Below, piece after piece: positions 6,596-51,986 of a stretch of 64,000 bases of DNA (position 1 is its first letter; the number at the start of each line of letters is the position of its first letter). Under the pieces are notes generated by a model. That model was not told the DNA's origin, did no database searches, and saw only the letters and a list, made by a program, of their open reading frames with translations. The translations under genes were made by a program, and so were the position numbers. The DNA comes from Phreatobacter sp. (GTDB taxonomy: Bacteria > Pseudomonadota > Alphaproteobacteria > Rhizobiales > Phreatobacteraceae). Location: the NCBI RefSeq assembly GCF_027532945.1, contig NZ_JAPZTZ010000012.1, positions 114,030 through 178,029 on the forward strand. The letters are read 5' to 3'.

Positions 6596-8593
6596 ATGAG
6601 CCAGGACATCCGCAACGCTTCCCAGCGCGCCGAAGACGCCGAGGACCGCGGCACCAGCCCGGCGGATGGCCCGACCCTCGGCGACATCGTTGCCGCCCGC
6701 TTCGGCCGGCGCGACCTGATGAAGGGCCTGCTCGGAGTGGGTGCCATCTCGGCGACGCTCGGCCCTGCTGCCCTCGCCTCCGGCACCGCTTCGGCTCAGG
6801 GCGCGGCCGCGGCCTTCGCCTTCCGCGAGCTCGATTCGACCCCGACCGACCGCGCCGAGGTGGCCGAGGGCTACAATGCCGAGGTCCTGATCCGCTGGGG
6901 TGATGCGGTCCTTGCCGATGCCCCGGCCTTCTCGCCCAGGGCCCAGACGGCCACTTCGCAGGCGCGCCAGTTCGGCTACAACAACGACTATCTCGGCTAT
7001 TTCCCGTTGCCGGGCGCGGCAAACCCGTCCGCCCATGGCCTGCTCTGCGTCAATCACGAATATACCAACGAGGAGCTGATGTTCCCCGGCCTCGGCCGGC
7101 AGGACGCCGCGGGCCCGCTCGGCCGCGAGAAGGCCTTCGCCGGGATGACCAAGGAGCTCGCCGCCGTCGAGATGATGGCCCATGGCGGCTCGGTCCTGGA
7201 GGTCCGCCGCGATGGCGAGCGCTGGCAGGTCGTCTCCGGCTCCCGCTATGCCCGCCGCATCACCGCCGAGACGCCGATGGAGATCACCGGCCCCGCCGCG
7301 GGACATCCGCGCCTGCAGACCAGCGCCGACCCGACCGGACGCCGCGTCCTCGGCATGCTCAACAACTGCGCCGGCGGCCGCACGCCCTGGGGCACCTGGC
7401 TGTCCTGCGAGGAGAACATCAACGGCTATTTCTCCGGCCGCCTTGGCGAGGGCCATGCCGAGGCCGCCAACTATCGCCGCATGGGCATTCCCGGCCGCTG
7501 GATGAACTGGGGCGACTACGAGCCCCGCTTCGACCTGTCGAAGGAACCGAACGAGCCGAACCGCTTCGGCTGGGTGGTCGAGATCGATCCGTTCGATCCG
7601 ACCTCCACCCCGAAGAAGCGCACCGCGCTCGGCCGCTTCAAACATGAGGGCGCCGCCGGCATCACCGCCCGCGACGGGCGCTACGTCCTCTATTCCGGCG
7701 ACGACGAGCGCTACGACTACGTCTATCGCTTCGTCACCGAGGGCCGCGTCTCCGGCGATCGCGCCCGGGACATGACCCTGCTCGACTCTGGCACGCTGTC
7801 GGTCGCCCGCTACAATGCCGACGGCACCGGCGACTGGCTGCCGCTGGTCTTCGGCGAGGGTCCGCTGACCCCCGCCAACGGCTTCCAGTCCCAGGCCGAC
7901 GTGGTGATCGAAGCGCGCCGCGCCGCCGACCTGCTCGGTGCCACCCGCATGGACCGCCCGGAGGATGTCGAGGCCAATCCGCGGACCGACAAGGTCTATG
8001 TCATGCTCACCAACAACAACCGCCGCAAGGCGGACGAGGTGAACCCGGCCAATCCGCGCGCCGACAACCGCTTCGGCCACATCGTCGAGATGCTGCCTGA
8101 CGGCCGCGACCACGCCGCCCCGCGCTTCACCTGGGACATCCTGGTCCGCTGCGGCGATCCTTCCATCGCGGCGGTTGGCGCGACCTTCAACAGCCGCACG
8201 ACGAAGGACGGCTGGTTTGGCATGCCCGACAATTGCGCCATCGACGCCGACGGGCGGCTGTGGATCGCAACCGACGGCAATTTCCCGAGCCGAACCGGCC
8301 GCAATGACGGCGTCTGGGCCATGGAGACCGAGGGCGACAACCGCGGCACCTCGAAGCTCTTCTTCAAGTGCCCCTTCGGCGCCGAGCTCTGCGGGCCCGA
8401 ATTCACCCCCGATGGCGAGACCTTCTTCGTCGCGCTTCAGCACCCCGGCGAGACCGACCCGGAAGATCCCAATGCCGCGCCGGCGACCTACGAGAACCCG
8501 GCGACCCGCTGGCCGGATTTCTCGCCCGACATGCCGCCGCGTCCCTCGATCGTCGCCATCACCCGCAAGGGCGGCGGCAAGATCGGCAGCTGA
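6596..8593 (+). CDS. phoX: PhoX-family (DUF839) alkaline phosphatase, Tat-exported
   Basis: Tat-like FGRRDLMKGLLGVGAISATLG; CVNHEYTNEELMFPG; GTWLSCEENINGYF; FKHEGAAGITARDGRYVLYSGDDERYDYVYRFV. Confidence 0.9.
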   Translation: MSQDIRNASQRAEDAEDRGTSPADGPTLGDIVAARFGRRDLMKGLLGVGAISATLGPAALASGTASAQGAAAAFAFRELDSTPTDRAEVAEGYNAEVLIRWGDAVLADAPAFSPRAQTATSQARQFGYNNDYLGYFPLPGAANPSAHGLLCVNHEYTNEELMFPGLGRQDAAGPLGREKAFAGMTKELAAVEMMAHGGSVLEVRRDGERWQVVSGSRYARRITAETPMEITGPAAGHPRLQTSADPTGRRVLGMLNNCAGGRTPWGTWLSCEENINGYFSGRLGEGHAEAANYRRMGIPGRWMNWGDYEPRFDLSKEPNEPNRFGWVVEIDPFDPTSTPKKRTALGRFKHEGAAGITARDGRYVLYSGDDERYDYVYRFVTEGRVSGDRARDMTLLDSGTLSVARYNADGTGDWLPLVFGEGPLTPANGFQSQADVVIEARRAADLLGATRMDRPEDVEANPRTDKVYVMLTNNNRRKADEVNPANPRADNRFGHIVEMLPDGRDHAAPRFTWDILVRCGDPSIAAVGATFNSRTTKDGWFGMPDNCAIDADGRLWIATDGNFPSRTGRNDGVWAMETEGDNRGTSKLFFKCPFGAELCGPEFTPDGETFFVALQHPGETDPEDPNAAPATYENPATRWPDFSPDMPPRPSIVAITRKGGGKIGS

Positions 8594-25349: not shown

Positions 25350-26123
25350 TCACGGAATAATCGGCTCCATATGCGCGGCGCGGACGATGGCCGCGGCCTC
25401 CGGCGTGCGCATCAGGGCGAGGAAGGCGCGGGCCGCCTCGCCTTGCGCCGCGCCGGCCGACAGGCCCGCCGAATAGGTGGTGGTCAGCTGGATCTCGGCC
25501 GGCAGCGGCCCGATCATGCGGACGCCCTGCACCGGCATGATCTCGCTGATCTGGTGGAACACCACGTCCGCCTCACCGCGCACCACGCGCTCGGCGACAT
25601 AGCCGCCCATCTGCGGCCGGGCCCGCGCCGCCAGTTCGTCCTTCAGGCCGAGGCGTTCGGCAAGCTGGACGAAATAGATGCCGCTGGTGCCGCCGCCCGC
25701 CGGATCGACATAGGCGACGCCCTTGGAGGCGAGGATGAGCCGGCGAATGTCGTCGACGGTGGCGATGGGCGGCACCGGCGCGCCCTCCTTGATGCCAATG
25801 CCGATGCCGGTGCGGGCGAGGTCATAGCGCGACCCCGGCACGACCTTGGCCGAAGCGATCAGGGCGTCGATGACGACCGGCGTCGCCACGATGACATCGG
25901 CCGCCTCCCCTGCCTCGATTCGCCGGCGCACGCCGCCCGCCGTATCCGCGACCAGCGAGACGCTGTGGCCGCTACGCGCCTGGAACAGGTCGGCGAGTCG
26001 CTGAGAGACCTCCTTCGAGGCACCGGTGGCGAGCACTTTCAGCTCAGCCGCGAATGCTGCTCCAGGGACGATTGTCAATCCCAGAGTAACCAAGAGCGCA
26101 GAAAACCAGGAGCGGCGAAACAT
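25350..26123 (-). CDS. Periplasmic substrate-binding protein, ModA-like
   Basis: Signal peptide, then ELKVLATGASKEVSQRLADLFQARSGHSVSLV...ADVIVATPVVIDALIASAKVVPGSRYDLARTGIGIGIKEGA. Confidence 0.8.
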   Translation of the reverse strand: MFRRSWFSALLVTLGLTIVPGAAFAAELKVLATGASKEVSQRLADLFQARSGHSVSLVADTAGGVRRRIEAGEAADVIVATPVVIDALIASAKVVPGSRYDLARTGIGIGIKEGAPVPPIATVDDIRRLILASKGVAYVDPAGGGTSGIYFVQLAERLGLKDELAARARPQMGGYVAERVVRGEADVVFHQISEIMPVQGVRMIGPLPAEIQLTTTYSAGLSAGAAQGEAARAFLALMRTPEAAAIVRAAHMEPIIP

Positions 26124-26265
26124 CCAAAATCACTCGATCGGAAACCGGTCGTTTGTCGAACAATGCCAAGGGTTTTCTGGGACTGCAATCCAACGCCCGA
26201 CGACCGTGTCGCGCCGGGTTGCATATACAAATTGTTTCCCGTTATAATCTTTCTCTGAGAATAAA

Positions 26266-26799
26266 ATGAGGCTTTCTGTGACCGCCCCCATCTTTCGCTC
26301 CAGCGCTCATGCATCACCGAGCGAAGCGCTCAAACCCCTTGCAGAACTTGTTCTGAAAAGCCGAGATGCATCCTTTTCTCATACGATACTAGGTAATCCG
26401 ACCAACCTGATTCTCGCGGTCGGGACTGTCCAGTTGGTCCTAGTTCCGATGGCTCGGCGAGATAACGCCCGCTTCCGCGTTTTGGAAGACATTGAGCAGG
26501 GGCGGCTGTCCGCCGGGCGTCCGGTGATCCTTGTTAACATGAAACGAGGTCTCAGGATCGAAGCCGAGAACGGGGAGGCGCTCTCCGCTAACCGTTGCAT
26601 CTACGCCGTATCCCCGCAAGAGACCCTCCGATTGAACGATCCCGCGGAAATAGCCCGATCCATCCCGCAGACTGAACCACTTCTCCTGAATGGACGGCCT
26701 GCGCCGGCTCCTCCGAAGAGGCCAGCGCCCACGGAAGCCAAGCCCGGCAGAACAACGCCCCCTGTCCCGCAAACCGACAAGCCTTCATCAACACGATAG
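26266..26799 (+). CDS. Hypothetical protein, 177 aa, Pro-rich C-terminal tail
   Basis: ORF in the AT-rich segment starting MRLSVTAPIFRSSAHASPSEALKPLAELVLKSRDASFSHT and ending PAPAPPKRPAPTEAKPGRTTPPVPQTD; no family recognised. Confidence 0.6.
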   Translation: MRLSVTAPIFRSSAHASPSEALKPLAELVLKSRDASFSHTILGNPTNLILAVGTVQLVLVPMARRDNARFRVLEDIEQGRLSAGRPVILVNMKRGLRIEAENGEALSANRCIYAVSPQETLRLNDPAEIARSIPQTEPLLLNGRPAPAPPKRPAPTEAKPGRTTPPVPQTDKPSSTR

Positions 26800-26834
26800 A
26801 CAACCTTGATCCCGGGAAGTACCCGCAGGAGCCT

Positions 26835-27461
26835 ATGATGTCAGATGGGACGATATTTTCAGACTACTGGGGCGCCAAATTCAACGTCACGAAATGGCGA
26901 CGCTATCATTCTGAACGTGTCGCCCATTACGAACGCCTGGACCGTTGGGTTGCATTCTTGTCGATTTTTCTAGGGTCAGCCGCGATAGCTAATCTCGCCG
27001 GTTGGTTCAACCATCTATCAGGATACCAGTTTGTGCTGGCCGGCCTGATCGCCGTGATGAACGCCGCAAAACTTGTTTTTGAATTTTCACGGAATGCGCA
27101 GATACATCGCGACATGCACCGCGAGATGACAGCGCTATGCATTGAAATATACAAAAACAACACTCCCTCGGATGACAATATCCGATCCTGGGAGGCGAGC
27201 ATGATCGACATCAATGCACGAATGTACAAAATATTCTGGGCTGCGGAGGCGCATGCATACAATCAAACGGTGGTCGAATTTTACGAAAATTTTGCCCCTC
27301 CGATCAAAATCAGCGGCTATAAATTTAAATTCCGAAACTTGCTCACATTCTCAAACGACAATTTCGTCGCGGATTGGTCCCTAGCCGACAAACATCTGCG
27401 TCCGACTTATCCTGCGCCGGAGACAAGTACCGCCGACGCACCACCACGCAAAGCCGGATAA
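26835..27461 (+). CDS. Two-TM protein, SLATT-like
   Basis: KWRRYHSERVAHYERLDRWVAFLSIFLGSAAIANLAGWF / YQFVLAGLIAVMNAAKLVFEFSRNAQIHRDMHREMTALCIEIYK: basic/aromatic amphipathic helix, two TMs, then helix with R-x-H-R-x-M-H-R. Confidence 0.65.
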   Translation: MMSDGTIFSDYWGAKFNVTKWRRYHSERVAHYERLDRWVAFLSIFLGSAAIANLAGWFNHLSGYQFVLAGLIAVMNAAKLVFEFSRNAQIHRDMHREMTALCIEIYKNNTPSDDNIRSWEASMIDINARMYKIFWAAEAHAYNQTVVEFYENFAPPIKISGYKFKFRNLLTFSNDNFVADWSLADKHLRPTYPAPETSTADAPPRKAG

Positions 27462-27504
27462 TACGGCCTTGCTGTGTTAGTCGAGGACACGGTCCAGCCT
27501 CGCC

Positions 27505-27918
27505 TCAGCCTTTCGGCTTCGGCGCCCACTCCTCCACCGGACCGCCGGTCTTCTTCCAGGCGCCGAACCCGCCCTCGACATGGGCGACGGGCTTCAGGCC
27601 CATGTCCTGCGCGGTCTTGGCGGCCAGCGCCGAGCGCAGCCCACCGGCGCAGAAGAAGACGAAGGTCTTGTCCTCCTGGAACACCGGCTTGGCATAGGGG
27701 CTTTCCGGGTCGATCCAGAATTCCAGCATGCCGCGGGTGCAGTGGAAGGCACCGGGCACCTTGCCGTCGCGCTCCAGCTCGCGCGGGTCGCGAATGTCCA
27801 CGAAGACCACGTCGTCGCGGCCATGGAGGGCCTTGGCCTCCTCGATGGTCAGCGTCTTCACCTCGGCATTGGCCTGGTCGATCAGCGCCTTGTAGCCCCG
27901 CGTGATGGTCTGCGGCAT
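27505..27918 (-). CDS. Rhodanese-like domain protein
   Basis: LHGRDDVVFVDIRDPRELERDGKVPGAFHCTRGMLEFWI...FVFFCAGGLRSALAAKTAQDMGLKPVAHVEGGFGAWKK. Confidence 0.92.
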   Translation of the reverse strand: MPQTITRGYKALIDQANAEVKTLTIEEAKALHGRDDVVFVDIRDPRELERDGKVPGAFHCTRGMLEFWIDPESPYAKPVFQEDKTFVFFCAGGLRSALAAKTAQDMGLKPVAHVEGGFGAWKKTGGPVEEWAPKPKG

Positions 27919-28026
27919 GCGATCCTCCTGTCAGGGGCGGGAGCCTAGCCCATCGCCCGCCGCCGGGACACCCGCCGGACGGCGGGTGACTCGACGCCGC
28001 CCCGCCGGCCTTGCTACGCCTGTCCG

Positions 28027-44883: not shown

Positions 44884-45010
44884 TGGACACACAACATGCC
44901 TTGCGCGGATGCGCTGGCGTCCGAGCAGGGCTCGTGTCCGCGACAGGTCTGGATGAGCGGTCGCGTCGGTCTGATCTTGGCCGAGACGGTAGATCAGGCC
45001 GGCCTCGCGG

Positions 45011-45029
45011 GCTGTTCAAAATTGATCAG
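45011..45029 (+). repeat. 19-bp direct repeat, right copy (overlaps the crp-like stop codon)
   Basis: GCTGTTCAAAATTGATCAG; see 43624-43642. Confidence 0.6.
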
Positions 45030-45795
45030 AAGAGGCCCGCTTCGTCTTTCGGCTGATATGCGGCTGGTCGTGCAGCACGGCATTCAGCAGCGAGCTGTGG
45101 ACCTCGATCCCGCCATTATAGGAGATGAAGCCGAGCTTGCGGAATTTGTTCATGAAATAACTGACCCGGGCCCGTGTCGTACCAATCATCTGGGCGAGGG
45201 TTTCCTGGCTGATCTTGGCGATCACCGGTTCGGGCTCGCTGTCCTTGCCGAAATTGGCAAGGAGCAGCAGAAGCCGGGCAAGGCGCTTCTCGCTGGAATT
45301 GAACAACTGGTCGATCAGATCCGCCTCGACGCGGACGGCGCGCCCGAGAAGATGGGCGATGAACATCTCGGAGAATGCCGGCTGGTCGTGGATCAACCTG
45401 ACGATGGTCGACTTGTCGATGCGTGAGATCGTGGCTTCCGACATGGCCATGGCCGTGGCGATGCGTTTCGACTGACCGGCAAGCCCACCTTCTCCAAAGA
45501 AGTCTTTGGGGCCGAGAAGCGCCACCACCGCTTCCTTGCCCTGTTCGGAGACAACCGCGATCTTCACCTTGCCCTTGTGAATGTAGAACACGGCATTCGC
45601 CGGGTCTCCCTGGGCAAAGATAACGTCTCCTGCCGCATAGGTTGCATCGCTCCGACCTTTGCCAACGGGTCCAGAAACGTCTTCGAGTCGAATACTGACG
45701 TGGGCTTGCGCGGCATGGACGTCCCTTTGGACTCCCGCAGCTGTCGCCGCGGGCTGATGCCTTCCCCAACGCGCGAGAGTAGAGAAATACCTCAT
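45016..45795 (-). CDS. Crp/Fnr family transcriptional regulator
   Basis: YAAGDVIFAQGDPANAVFYIHKGKVKIAVVSEQGKEAVVALLGPKDFFGEGGLAGQSKRIATAMA...KISQETLAQMIGTTRARVSYFMNKFRKLGFISYNGGIEVHSSLLNAVL. Confidence 0.9.
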   Translation of the reverse strand: MRYFSTLARWGRHQPAATAAGVQRDVHAAQAHVSIRLEDVSGPVGKGRSDATYAAGDVIFAQGDPANAVFYIHKGKVKIAVVSEQGKEAVVALLGPKDFFGEGGLAGQSKRIATAMAMSEATISRIDKSTIVRLIHDQPAFSEMFIAHLLGRAVRVEADLIDQLFNSSEKRLARLLLLLANFGKDSEPEPVIAKISQETLAQMIGTTRARVSYFMNKFRKLGFISYNGGIEVHSSLLNAVLHDQPHISRKTKRASSDQF

Positions 45796-46182
45796 TGTCG
45801 GCAAATATCTGTTCCACGTGCTCGTCGTCGGAAACTTCGACCAGCGGACTTCGCCCTTGCGAACGCCCCCTTTCGCGACGGAAATCGATGCCCTTGACGG
45901 CAATACGGAGCCGATTCCGGGCAAAACCGCGCAATCCTCGCCCGCGATGATCCTGCCGCAGGTGTGGCATGCAACTCTCGCGAAGCCCGCAGCAACGGGG
46001 CCGTCGCGCTGCGCTCGTGCTACCCTGACGAGGTGTTCGGTGCCACCTGGAAGCGGCACAGTTCGTGCTCCACATGGGGGAGAAGGACGCGGGGTGATCG
46101 GCCATGCGACCTTCATCGACGACGACCCGGCGCCGTGTTGGCGCCGTGAGGCACAGGGAGCCGCAGGCATGAGGACCGACGC

Positions 46183-48569: not shown

Positions 48570-49193
48570 TCAGGGGAGCGCCTGAGATGCCGGGAGCGAA
48601 CTGGCAAGGGCGCGCCGATCCAGGAGAGTGCTGGCCTCTGCCGCCATGTTCACCATCATGCCCCGCATGTGATTGAGCACGACATCCCGATCGAGCTTCA
48701 TCAGGTCGGGGTGAATGGGAACAAGCGCGAAGATCTCGTCGAACGTCGCCTTGCAGATGTCCTGCGGTGCCTTGGGCTCCGCCAGCGCAGCGCGGCGAAG
48801 GCTCGTCTCGACCCCGTCTCCCTGTTCGCGCCACCAGTCCGGATCAACGCCGGCGGGGCACGGATAGCGGCTGAGGACATTGCGCCCGACTGCGACCAGC
48901 GCATCAAGCAGTGCCGGCTCCTGACCCACGGCGGCCCCGCGCAGATGGCCGTCGACGAGTTCGAGCACGTTGGACAGGCTCAACGGAAAGGCCCGCCACC
49001 GCCCCTCTTCGATGGCGTCCTTGAAGGACTGCTCGCGAAACAGTTTTTCCGCAAGAATTCCGGCCCGCGCACGGCTGTATTCATACATGGAGCGATTGAC
49101 GAGAAAGGCCGCCCGCGCGTCGACGAAGTCTTCGAGGCCTGACCATGACGCGACCGTCTTCTTGCGGCCGAGGATGGCGTCGAGCAGTCCCAT
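48570..49193 (-). CDS. Conserved-looking hypothetical protein, 207 aa
   Basis: MGLLDAILGRKKTVASWSGLEDFVDARAAFLVNRSMYEYSRARAGILAEKLF...; no family named. Confidence 0.7.
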   Translation of the reverse strand: MGLLDAILGRKKTVASWSGLEDFVDARAAFLVNRSMYEYSRARAGILAEKLFREQSFKDAIEEGRWRAFPLSLSNVLELVDGHLRGAAVGQEPALLDALVAVGRNVLSRYPCPAGVDPDWWREQGDGVETSLRRAALAEPKAPQDICKATFDEIFALVPIHPDLMKLDRDVVLNHMRGMMVNMAAEASTLLDRRALASSLPASQALP

Positions 49194-49631
49194 GGCATTC
49201 TCCCCCTGTCGCGCCGACTATAGCAGCCGTCCCCGCCATGCGCACCGGACGCGGCCGACCACAGCCTTGAGCAGGCAAAATGACGCAGTCCGCGGCGTTT
49301 TGACGCTGCCGCAGACTCGGTCAATGCCCCCATGCGCTGCCATTCGCCGCAGCCTCATTCGACTTTCGTAGCATTGTGGGCGGTAAGTGGGCGTTTACCG
49401 TTTCCACCGTCGAGCGCCCGTCATTTTGCTTTGCATTTTTGTGCAGAGCAGCAATGTCGAGCGAAAACACTTGGTATGCCGCGCCCGTTCGCCAACTCAT
49501 CTTGGCCACGGGCGTATGGCGCTGCGTCGACAAACGTGCCGGAGAGCACGCCGTCGGGCGCTCGGGAGGTGAATCGCATGAGGCCGCCGTTCGGCGGTCG
49601 CAATGCCCGAGGGGCACAAGGAGGGTATAGC

Positions 49632-49916
49632 ATGGCGCAAGCGCCCGACGATCCAGCGCAGAAGCCCGATGACGTGGGCTATTGGAAGGCCACACAGAAA
49701 CTGACGTTCACGGCCGTGGGCATCTGGGCCTTCTTTTCGTTCTTCGTGCACTTTTTCGCACCCGCACTGAACGGCATTTCCATTCCGATCCTGAAATTCC
49801 CGCTTGGCTACTACATGGCTGCGCAGGGCTCTCTCATCGTATTCGTCGTCCTCATCTTCTGGTTCTGCAATCAGCAGGAAAAGATCGATGAGGAATTCGG
49901 CGTGTCTGAAGACTGA
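49632..49916 (+). CDS. DUF4212 protein (symporter small subunit)
   Basis: YWKATQKLTFTAVGIWAFFSFFVHFFAPALNGISIPILKFPLGYYMAAQGSLIVFVVLIFWFCNQQEKID. Confidence 0.88.
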   Translation: MAQAPDDPAQKPDDVGYWKATQKLTFTAVGIWAFFSFFVHFFAPALNGISIPILKFPLGYYMAAQGSLIVFVVLIFWFCNQQEKIDEEFGVSED

Positions 49917-49931
49917 GGCGGAGGGCGAACA

Positions 49932-51986
49932 ATGTCAGTTGAACAGGCTGGCGGCCGCGATTTTCTCTCTAATCTCGGTCGTGTCTACTCTCTCTACACC
50001 TTCTCGTTCCTCGGCTGCGTTATCGTGCTCGCGGTCCTGGAACAGGTCGGCATGCCCAAGCCCTGGATCGGCTACGCCTTCGTCGCCCTGACGATCGGCG
50101 TTTATGCCGCCATCGGCATCCTCTCGCGCACCGCGGAGGTCTCCGAGTACTATGTCGCGGGCCGCAAGGTGCCGGCCATGTACAACGGCATGGCCACGGC
50201 GGCCGACTGGATGTCGGCGGCCTCCTTCATCGGCATGGCCGGCTCGCTCTACCTGCTCGGCTATAACGGCCTCGCCTTCATCCTGGGCTGGACCGGTGGC
50301 TTCGTGCTGGTGGCGACGCTGATCGCGCCGTTCCTGCGCAAGTTCGGCGCCTACACGATCCCGGACTTCTTCTCCTTCCGCTACGGCGGCAAGGTGGCGC
50401 GGACCCTGGCGATCATCGTGCTGATGAGCTGTTCCTTCACCTATGTGGTGGCGCAGATCGTCGGCACGGGCCTCATCGGTGCCCGCCTCCTGAACATGGA
50501 TTACGTCGTCGCCGTCTATGTCGGCCTCGTCGGCATCCTCGTCTGCTCCATGCTCGGCGGCATGCGCGCGGTGACCTGGACCCAGGTGGCCCAGTACATC
50601 GTGCTGATCATCGCCTACCTCATCCCGGTGGTGATCCTGTCGGCGCAGCAATATGGCATCCCGATCCCGCAGCTCACCTATGGCGACGTGCTCGCGAAGA
50701 TCGCCGCCAAGGAAGCCGCGCTGCGGGCGGCCGGCGACGTGGTCGTTCCCGCGGTTGGCTACATCAACCCGTCCTTCGGCAACCCGGCCCTCTCGGGTGC
50801 GGCGCTGTGGGTCGAGTACGTCAACTATTTCGGCCTCATCCTCTGCCTCATGGTCGGCACGGCGTCCCTGCCGCACGTCCTCATGCGCTTCTTCACCACC
50901 CCCTCGGTGCGTGAAGCCCGCAAGTCAGTCGGCTGGTCGCTGCTGTTCATCTTCATCCTGTACTTCACGGCGCCGGCCTATGCCGCCTTCGCGAAGATGG
51001 AGGTGTACAACAACGTCGTCGGCCAGAACCTCGCGACGCTGTTCTCCGCCGACAACCTCAGCTGGATCCGCTCCTACGGTCGCGTGGGCCTGATCCAGAT
51101 CTGCGGTGTCGACGCGACCACGCTGGAGGCAGTCCGCACGGCCTGCGCCCGCGTGATGCAGCACACCGGGGACGTGGCGTCGTTCAACCCGACGATCCAG
51201 CTGCGCCACTTCGGCATCCAGGCGGACGCCATCGTGATCTCCACCCCGGAGATCGCCGGCCTGCCCTACGTGATCGCCGGTCTCGTGGCGGCCGGTGGCC
51301 TCGCGGCGGCTCTGTCCACCGCCGACGGTCTGCTGCTCGCCATGGCGAACGCCCTGTCGCATGACGTCTACTACAAGATGATCGACCAGAACGCCTCGAC
51401 CGAGAAGCGCCTGGTGGTCGCCCGTGTCCTGCTGATCGTGGTCGCCATCGCGGCGGCTTATGTGGCCTCGTTCCGACCTGCCGACATCGTCGCCATGGTC
51501 GCCTGGGCCTTCTCGCTGGCGGCGGCCGGCTTCTTCCCCGCGCTGGTTCTCGGCATCTGGTGGAAGAAGGCGACGACGCAGGGCGCGATCTGGGGCATCG
51601 TCGTGGGCTTCGGCATCACGCTCTACTACCTCGTCGGCACCCGCTACTACGCGCCCGCCTTCTACGAGACCTGGAAGGGTCTCTCGATCGCGACCGCCGC
51701 GCAGTTCCAGGCCTATGAGGCGGCCAAGGCGGCCTATGCGGCGGCGGCAACGCCGGCCAACTGGGTCGTCCTCGACCGTACGGCGCAGGTCGTCGCCAAC
51801 TGGTGGGGCGTCCGTGGCATCTCGTCAGGTGTCTTCGGCCTTCCGCTGGGCTTCCTGGTGATCTGGGCGGTGTCCAAGTTCACCGAGGAGCCGTCGCAGG
51901 AGATGCAGAACTTCATCGACGAGATCCGTCGCCCGAAGGGTGGCGTCGTGATGGAGGACAAGGCTGCCAGCGCCATCGGACATTGA
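49932..51986 (+). CDS. Sodium:solute symporter, ActP/acetate permease-like
   Basis: VSEYYVAGRKVPAMYNGMATAADWMSAASFIGMAGSLYLLGYNGLAFILGWTGGFVLVATLIAPFLRKFGAYTIPDFFSFRYG; ALSTADGLLLAMANALSHDVY. Confidence 0.92.
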   Translation: MSVEQAGGRDFLSNLGRVYSLYTFSFLGCVIVLAVLEQVGMPKPWIGYAFVALTIGVYAAIGILSRTAEVSEYYVAGRKVPAMYNGMATAADWMSAASFIGMAGSLYLLGYNGLAFILGWTGGFVLVATLIAPFLRKFGAYTIPDFFSFRYGGKVARTLAIIVLMSCSFTYVVAQIVGTGLIGARLLNMDYVVAVYVGLVGILVCSMLGGMRAVTWTQVAQYIVLIIAYLIPVVILSAQQYGIPIPQLTYGDVLAKIAAKEAALRAAGDVVVPAVGYINPSFGNPALSGAALWVEYVNYFGLILCLMVGTASLPHVLMRFFTTPSVREARKSVGWSLLFIFILYFTAPAYAAFAKMEVYNNVVGQNLATLFSADNLSWIRSYGRVGLIQICGVDATTLEAVRTACARVMQHTGDVASFNPTIQLRHFGIQADAIVISTPEIAGLPYVIAGLVAAGGLAAALSTADGLLLAMANALSHDVYYKMIDQNASTEKRLVVARVLLIVVAIAAAYVASFRPADIVAMVAWAFSLAAAGFFPALVLGIWWKKATTQGAIWGIVVGFGITLYYLVGTRYYAPAFYETWKGLSIATAAQFQAYEAAKAAYAAAATPANWVVLDRTAQVVANWWGVRGISSGVFGLPLGFLVIWAVSKFTEEPSQEMQNFIDEIRRPKGGVVMEDKAASAIGH

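Follow-up and report, generated by a model that had tools for sequence, protein, structure and literature searches.

A SLATT-like two-gene cassette in Phreatobacter and its prophage-borne relatives with a small proline-rich partner

Prophage exclusion genes of the RexA/RexB and SieA/SieB types are repressor-linked and include a membrane protein. Small proteins with two transmembrane (2TM) helices are typical of exclusion proteins, such as SieA and SieB. SLATT proteins are thought to respond to nucleotide or nucleic-acid signals from a partner enzyme. They are predicted to be pore-forming effectors (PMC7159879), and TIR-SLATT pairs occur in phages of Firmicutes (PMC9503650). In DRT10, composed of a reverse transcriptase, an ncRNA and a SLATT protein, defence against phages depends on the SLATT gene (PMC12632851).

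We analysed a stretch of 64,000 nucleotides from Phreatobacter sp., here called the window, which contains two adjacent genes, ORF1 and ORF2. ORF2 shares the layout of the SLATT 2TM effectors, in which a long N-terminal helix is followed by two TM helices and a helical tail in the cytoplasm, but it scores under the SLATT cut-offs, and its family has a proline-rich partner in place of the enzyme-type one. With TIR-SLATT pairs and DRT10 the family of ORF2 shares the presence of a SLATT protein within phage or antiphage operons. There, however, an enzyme that produces a nucleotide or DNA signal or product serves as partner, whereas in the ORF2 family the partner is a small disordered protein, and only the copy on a Rhizobium plasmid has a TIR-like gene nearby. 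The likeness to RexA/RexB and SieA/SieB lies in the linkage to a repressor and the presence of a membrane protein; the type of partner differs. No description of a proline-rich ORF paired with a 2TM gene was found in the open-access literature. SLATT effectors are known, and a SLATT-like protein with a constant proline-rich microprotein partner in prophages appears to be new.

A horizontally acquired cassette in place of a GST gene

ORF and Pfam checks confirmed the two ORFs reported by the first-pass annotation, on the same strand and 35 nt apart (Table 1). Their neighbours are a gene for a solute-binding protein of the ModA type (PF13531, E=1.8e-36) on one side and a rhodanese gene (PF00581, E=1.1e-17) on the other. 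The sharp drop in composition described there was also found, with 53% GC between the modA-like and rhodanese genes against 65-72% (around 69%) in the surrounding DNA. The lowest-GC kilobase of the window is 26001-27000, with 55.8%, followed by 27001-28000, with 59.4%. GC3 is 0.60 in ORF1 and 0.56 in ORF2, while the flanking genes reach 0.85 and 0.91.

Two other segments of the window, 45001-46000 and 49001-50000, have 59.6% GC, which is below the window average and near the value of 27001-28000. These are possibly further acquired pieces.

In the nearest same-genus genome (G006), DNA similarity ends at 26027 and restarts at 27505, being 86% to the left of the insert and 93% to the right. A glutathione S-transferase (GST) gene is present between the modA-like and rhodanese genes in 7 same-genus genomes (L102-L108). 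The window genome has no close copy of it; its sole GST elsewhere is a paralog, 42% identical. Given the low GC3 and a position where relatives keep their GST gene, the cassette is foreign DNA, acquired horizontally as had been proposed. Its left limit lies inside the modA-like gene, within a 5' end that is weakly conserved. No att sites, tRNA or direct repeats were found at the site, Rfam gave no match to a structured RNA there, and there is no recognisable prophage around the window copy.

Table 1. Features of the acquired cassette, in window positions.
Feature	Positions	Strand	Basis
Acquired cassette, replacing the GST gene of relatives	26028..27504		No similarity to same-genus genomes
Perfect -10-like hexamer TATAAT	26243..26248	+	Sequence; 17 nt before the ORF1 ATG
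ORF1, orphan of 177 aa and probable enlarged partner	26266..26799	+	ORF call, codon-position GC
C-terminal 45 residues of ORF1, a proline-rich tail (29% Pro)	26662..26796	+	Composition
Ribosome-binding site of ORF2, AGGAG	26827..26831	+	Sequence
ORF2, 208 aa, SLATT-like 2TM protein, PHROG 11791	26835..27461	+	ORF call, profile match, model
TM helix 1 of ORF2, residues 38-57	26946..27005	+	Hydropathy, model
TM helix 2 of ORF2, residues 64-84	27024..27086	+	Hydropathy, model

ORF2 and the PHROG 11791 family

ORF2 matches PHROG 11791, a phage protein family without described function or partner, with E=5.3e-21 (residues 11-174 on positions 10-170 of a profile of 173). All 14 aligned members, that is ORF2 and 13 homologs, match this profile over nearly their full length, and 12 of the 14 also match NCBIfam SLATT_4 weakly. 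The SLATT families compared were Pfam SLATT_1, SLATT_4 and SLATT_6, and NCBIfam NF033632. In Pfam, ORF2 gave only sub-threshold matches to SLATT_6 and SLATT_1 (E around 0.04; 14.1 and 14.4 bits against cut-offs of 27.1 and 26.3), and in NCBIfam SLATT it scored 15.6 against a cut-off of 55. Profile-profile comparison with small SLATT_1 and SLATT_4 sets was not significant, and PADLOC had no match for ORF1 or ORF2.

The AlphaFold model of ORF2, built with 39 sequences, reaches a pLDDT of 84.7 and a pTM of 0.77. It has a helix at residues 10-56, whose second half is TM1, then TM2 at around 64-82 and three more helices at 84-107, 113-128 and 135-148. The layout for which the protein had first been called SLATT-like, with long helices before and after the two TM segments, is thus present in the model. 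A 2TM hairpin with cytoplasmic helices is seen by hydropathy, in the model and by Foldseek. Against viral models, Foldseek returned giant-virus proteins named SLATT, several with probability 1.00, at E values of 5e-3 and weaker. The fold search against the PDB returned helical noise only. The predicted fold of ORF2 is SLATT-like, in keeping with the Foldseek matches and the weak SLATT_4 signal of its homologs. Its placement in the named SLATT families stays below every cut-off, and the family it belongs to is PHROG 11791.

The motif DEPP is nearly invariant in this family and missing from ORF2. ORF2 also has a long branch in the tree, in which the L024 row is void; the chromosomal copy in the window is a divergent member.

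Distant ORF2 homologs were found in 11 other genomes among 398 sampled in the order, and none in the 11 same-genus genomes; a scan of genome contigs with ORF2 gave no relative. Pseudomonas phage TC7 carries a further homolog, as do plasmids of Rhizobium, Klebsiella and Salinivibrio, and 46 loci were gathered by two IMG/VR scans.

Repressor context and the small proline-rich partner

ORF2 relatives are usually found in the repressor region of temperate phages, and often a CI/S24-type repressor is close by. Of 15 Pseudomonas-type prophages, 14 have a co-directional repressor-like gene whose end lies a few tens of nt upstream of the small ORF that precedes the 2TM gene. The repressors of three of these prophages were confirmed as S24-type by Pfam. 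The N-termini of the repressors vary from prophage to prophage; the module is constant. L020, L023, L052, L053, L063 and L074 likewise have S24-type genes no more than a few kb from the module, and the module of phage TC7 is counted among the repressor-linked copies as well. Such a context is the setting of an immunity module expressed in lysogeny.

The first-pass annotation had named SMODS/SLOG contexts as those of SLATT effectors, a setting that these neighbourhoods do not bear out. For the cassette itself it had seen no SMODS, SLOG or reverse-transcriptase partner. Profile scans in the window, which covered the cassette ORFs and the immediate neighbour genes, found none of these and no TIR partner. 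The neighbours are the ModA-type and rhodanese genes, and not the adjoining nucleotide-producing or nucleotide-sensing gene that marks SMODS, SLOG and CBASS-type systems.

On plasmid pRSpC104f of Rhizobium sp. C104 (L015, 4023-6573), ThsB-TIR-like, caspase and RyR-like genes are followed in a row by a 42-aa proline-rich ORF and the SLATT-like 2TM gene, the last two being unlisted in the record. The arrangement resembles a multi-gene conflict operon.

Almost all loci have a short ORF upstream of the 2TM gene and on the same strand, which ends at around -57 to +24 nt from the 2TM start. Three sequence types were found. The type of Pseudomonas-type prophages reads ...GPNTISESRPVPPPPRRDP, that of most other loci has GPRQP repeats and a tail such as PPPPKK, and the third type reads ...SHGNQPPPKxxKK.

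An ORF of low hydrophobicity ends near the 2TM start in 48 of 51 dereplicated loci, compared with 10% of random positions. By eye, a partner is recognisable in about 49 of the 51 non-redundant loci, the exceptions being L019 and L024. The automatic test chose another frame in a few loci (e.g. L053, L064 and L071), where the true partner is present too. For L024 a wrong frame was used, which voids its row in the partner tests as in the tree. When scored for proline, 46 of 59 loci are at or above the 95% quantile of the null. Within the 240 nt that precede the 2TM gene, the density of the GxRQP motif is around 95 times that in the rest of these contigs. The partner is a disordered, mostly proline-rich and near-constant feature of the family.

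Where tested, the small ORF is under purifying selection: across 13 prophages of the Pseudomonas type its pN is 0.26 against a pS of 0.77 (0.19 and 0.79 for the 2TM gene). Most copies have a GGAG-type ribosome site, and both other frames contain stops. Four partners compared with PHROGs had no match, and no such small ORF was found at eight ordinary SLATT loci. One ordinary SLATT control, L116 (591-1959), has a SLATT_4 domain gene right behind an ORF resembling a SMODS-type nucleotidyltransferase.

None of the three records examined (TC7, the Klebsiella plasmid and the Rhizobium plasmid) annotates the small ORF, the gene tables of the plasmids being incomplete. In TC7 (L017, 5799-6498), this ORF has 52 aa and is covered by the annotated TC7_041, whose start is probably placed 28 codons too early. 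L022 has a tandem pair of similar small proline-rich ORFs ahead of a single 2TM gene, at 7931-8083 and 8179-8337 on the minus strand, with tails LTPAPVRPDKGGEPDD and NNPAPVRPDPSE, as if the partner had been duplicated.

As for ORF1, its start is uncertain. The ATG at 26266 has no good ribosome site, and an alternative GTG at 26278 has GAGG upstream. The TATAAT hexamer is a weak promoter candidate, with no good -35 hexamer and no report from the promoter scan. Codon-position GC is compatible with coding from around residue 45 onward. Searches of plasmids, phages, IMG/VR, GTDB contigs, the 398 genomes of the order, Pfam, PADLOC, PHROGs and the PDB gave no ORF1 homologues, or chance matches only. 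A single-sequence AlphaFold model was uninformative (pLDDT 40) and was set aside.

The pairing proposed at first reading thus holds for the family in one form: it is the small proline-rich protein that accompanies the 2TM gene, and the 177-aa protein has no relatives to co-occur with it. ORF1 ends shortly before ORF2, as the family partners end near the 2TM start, yet it is far longer and has no detectable homology to the small partner ORFs. We consider it their probable enlarged counterpart, on account of its position just before ORF2 and its proline-rich tail, and not of homology. A precedent in L025 (7729-8673, minus strand) favours this assignment, where an enlarged ORF of around 315 aa with a Pro/Gly-rich tail is found upstream of the 2TM gene; it has no similarity to ORF1. 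A by-eye hint in RFAIAKEASHAIL that the L025 protein is a degenerate ImmA/IrrE-type zincin had no support from Pfam and was dropped.

Possible roles in phage exclusion and abortive infection

The explanation we favour, with about even confidence, is that the window cassette is a divergent chromosomal copy of an often phage-borne module for exclusion or abortive infection, made up of a SLATT-fold membrane permeabiliser and a proline-rich partner by which it is restrained or gated. The ORF2-type protein would form a SLATT-fold hairpin of two TM helices with a cytoplasmic helical head. The disordered proline-rich protein, translated just before it and extended in the window copy by an N-terminal domain, would bind this head, and either hold the pore shut or couple it to an infection signal. 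Once released, the 2TM protein would permeabilise the inner membrane. In lysogens, expression alongside the repressor would let the module stop or abort infections by competing phages. The analysis shows the arrangement of two genes and its conservation, the repressor context in phages, the resemblance in fold and the horizontal transfer, whereas the pore, the restraint by the partner, the action against phages and the equivalence of ORF1 to the partner are inferred.

This explanation is favoured by the membership in PHROG 11791, the SLATT-named Foldseek matches, the near-constant partner, the enlarged partner in L025 and the linkage to repressors. It is also favoured by the ThsB-TIR-like, caspase and RyR-like genes adjoining the Rhizobium copy, and by the need of DRT10 for its SLATT gene (PMC12632851). 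Against this explanation count the scores of ORF2 below the SLATT cut-offs, the null profile-profile comparison, the missing DEPP motif, the lack of homology between ORF1 and the partners, and the lack of a recognisable prophage at the window.

The strongest alternative, which we regard as unlikely, is superinfection exclusion without killing. The 2TM protein would alter the inner membrane and bar the entry of phage DNA in the manner of Sie proteins; its proline-rich partner would serve as an assembly or targeting factor and not as a restraint. Small 2TM proteins fit this picture, and a location behind the repressor in temperate phages suits either kind of immunity; the SLATT-like fold, however, points to predicted pore-forming effectors (PMC7159879), and one relative sits beside TIR-like and caspase genes.

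It is improbable that the window cassette is a decaying or chance pairing, in which ORF1 would be an unrelated orphan or would encode no protein at all, and ORF2 would be a relic. The absence of ORF1 homologs in any collection searched, its uninformative model, the long branch of ORF2 and the loss of DEPP would agree with decay. Both frames are nevertheless intact, the codon-position GC of ORF1 fits coding over most of its length, its proline-rich tail ends just before ORF2 as in the family, and L025 offers another enlarged partner.

Least probable is a toxin-antitoxin pair for prophage or plasmid maintenance, with a labile proline-rich antitoxin, a membrane toxin and defence as a secondary effect: the first gene is small and disordered, the second is adjacent or overlapping, and both phages and plasmids carry them, but the small protein has no DNA-binding domain and its gene, behind the repressor in prophages, shows no sign of autoregulation.

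Returning to the gated permeabiliser, a broader form of it can be put forward only tentatively. The module may represent an undescribed and widespread class of prophage immunity. A proline-rich microprotein, absent from annotations and produced together with the CI repressor, would gate a SLATT-fold pore directly, with protein contact taking the place of a signal made of nucleotides or DNA. The copy in the window would then be a chromosomal derivative whose microprotein has an added domain.

A place behind the repressor in a phage usually means immunity against other phages, and here the constant partner of the SLATT-like protein is a tiny disordered proline-rich protein alone. If confirmed, this would give a function to PHROG 11791 and reveal a conserved microprotein missed by annotation. 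It would also describe a simple two-component system, present in many Pseudomonas-type prophages, for the holding and release of SLATT membrane effectors.
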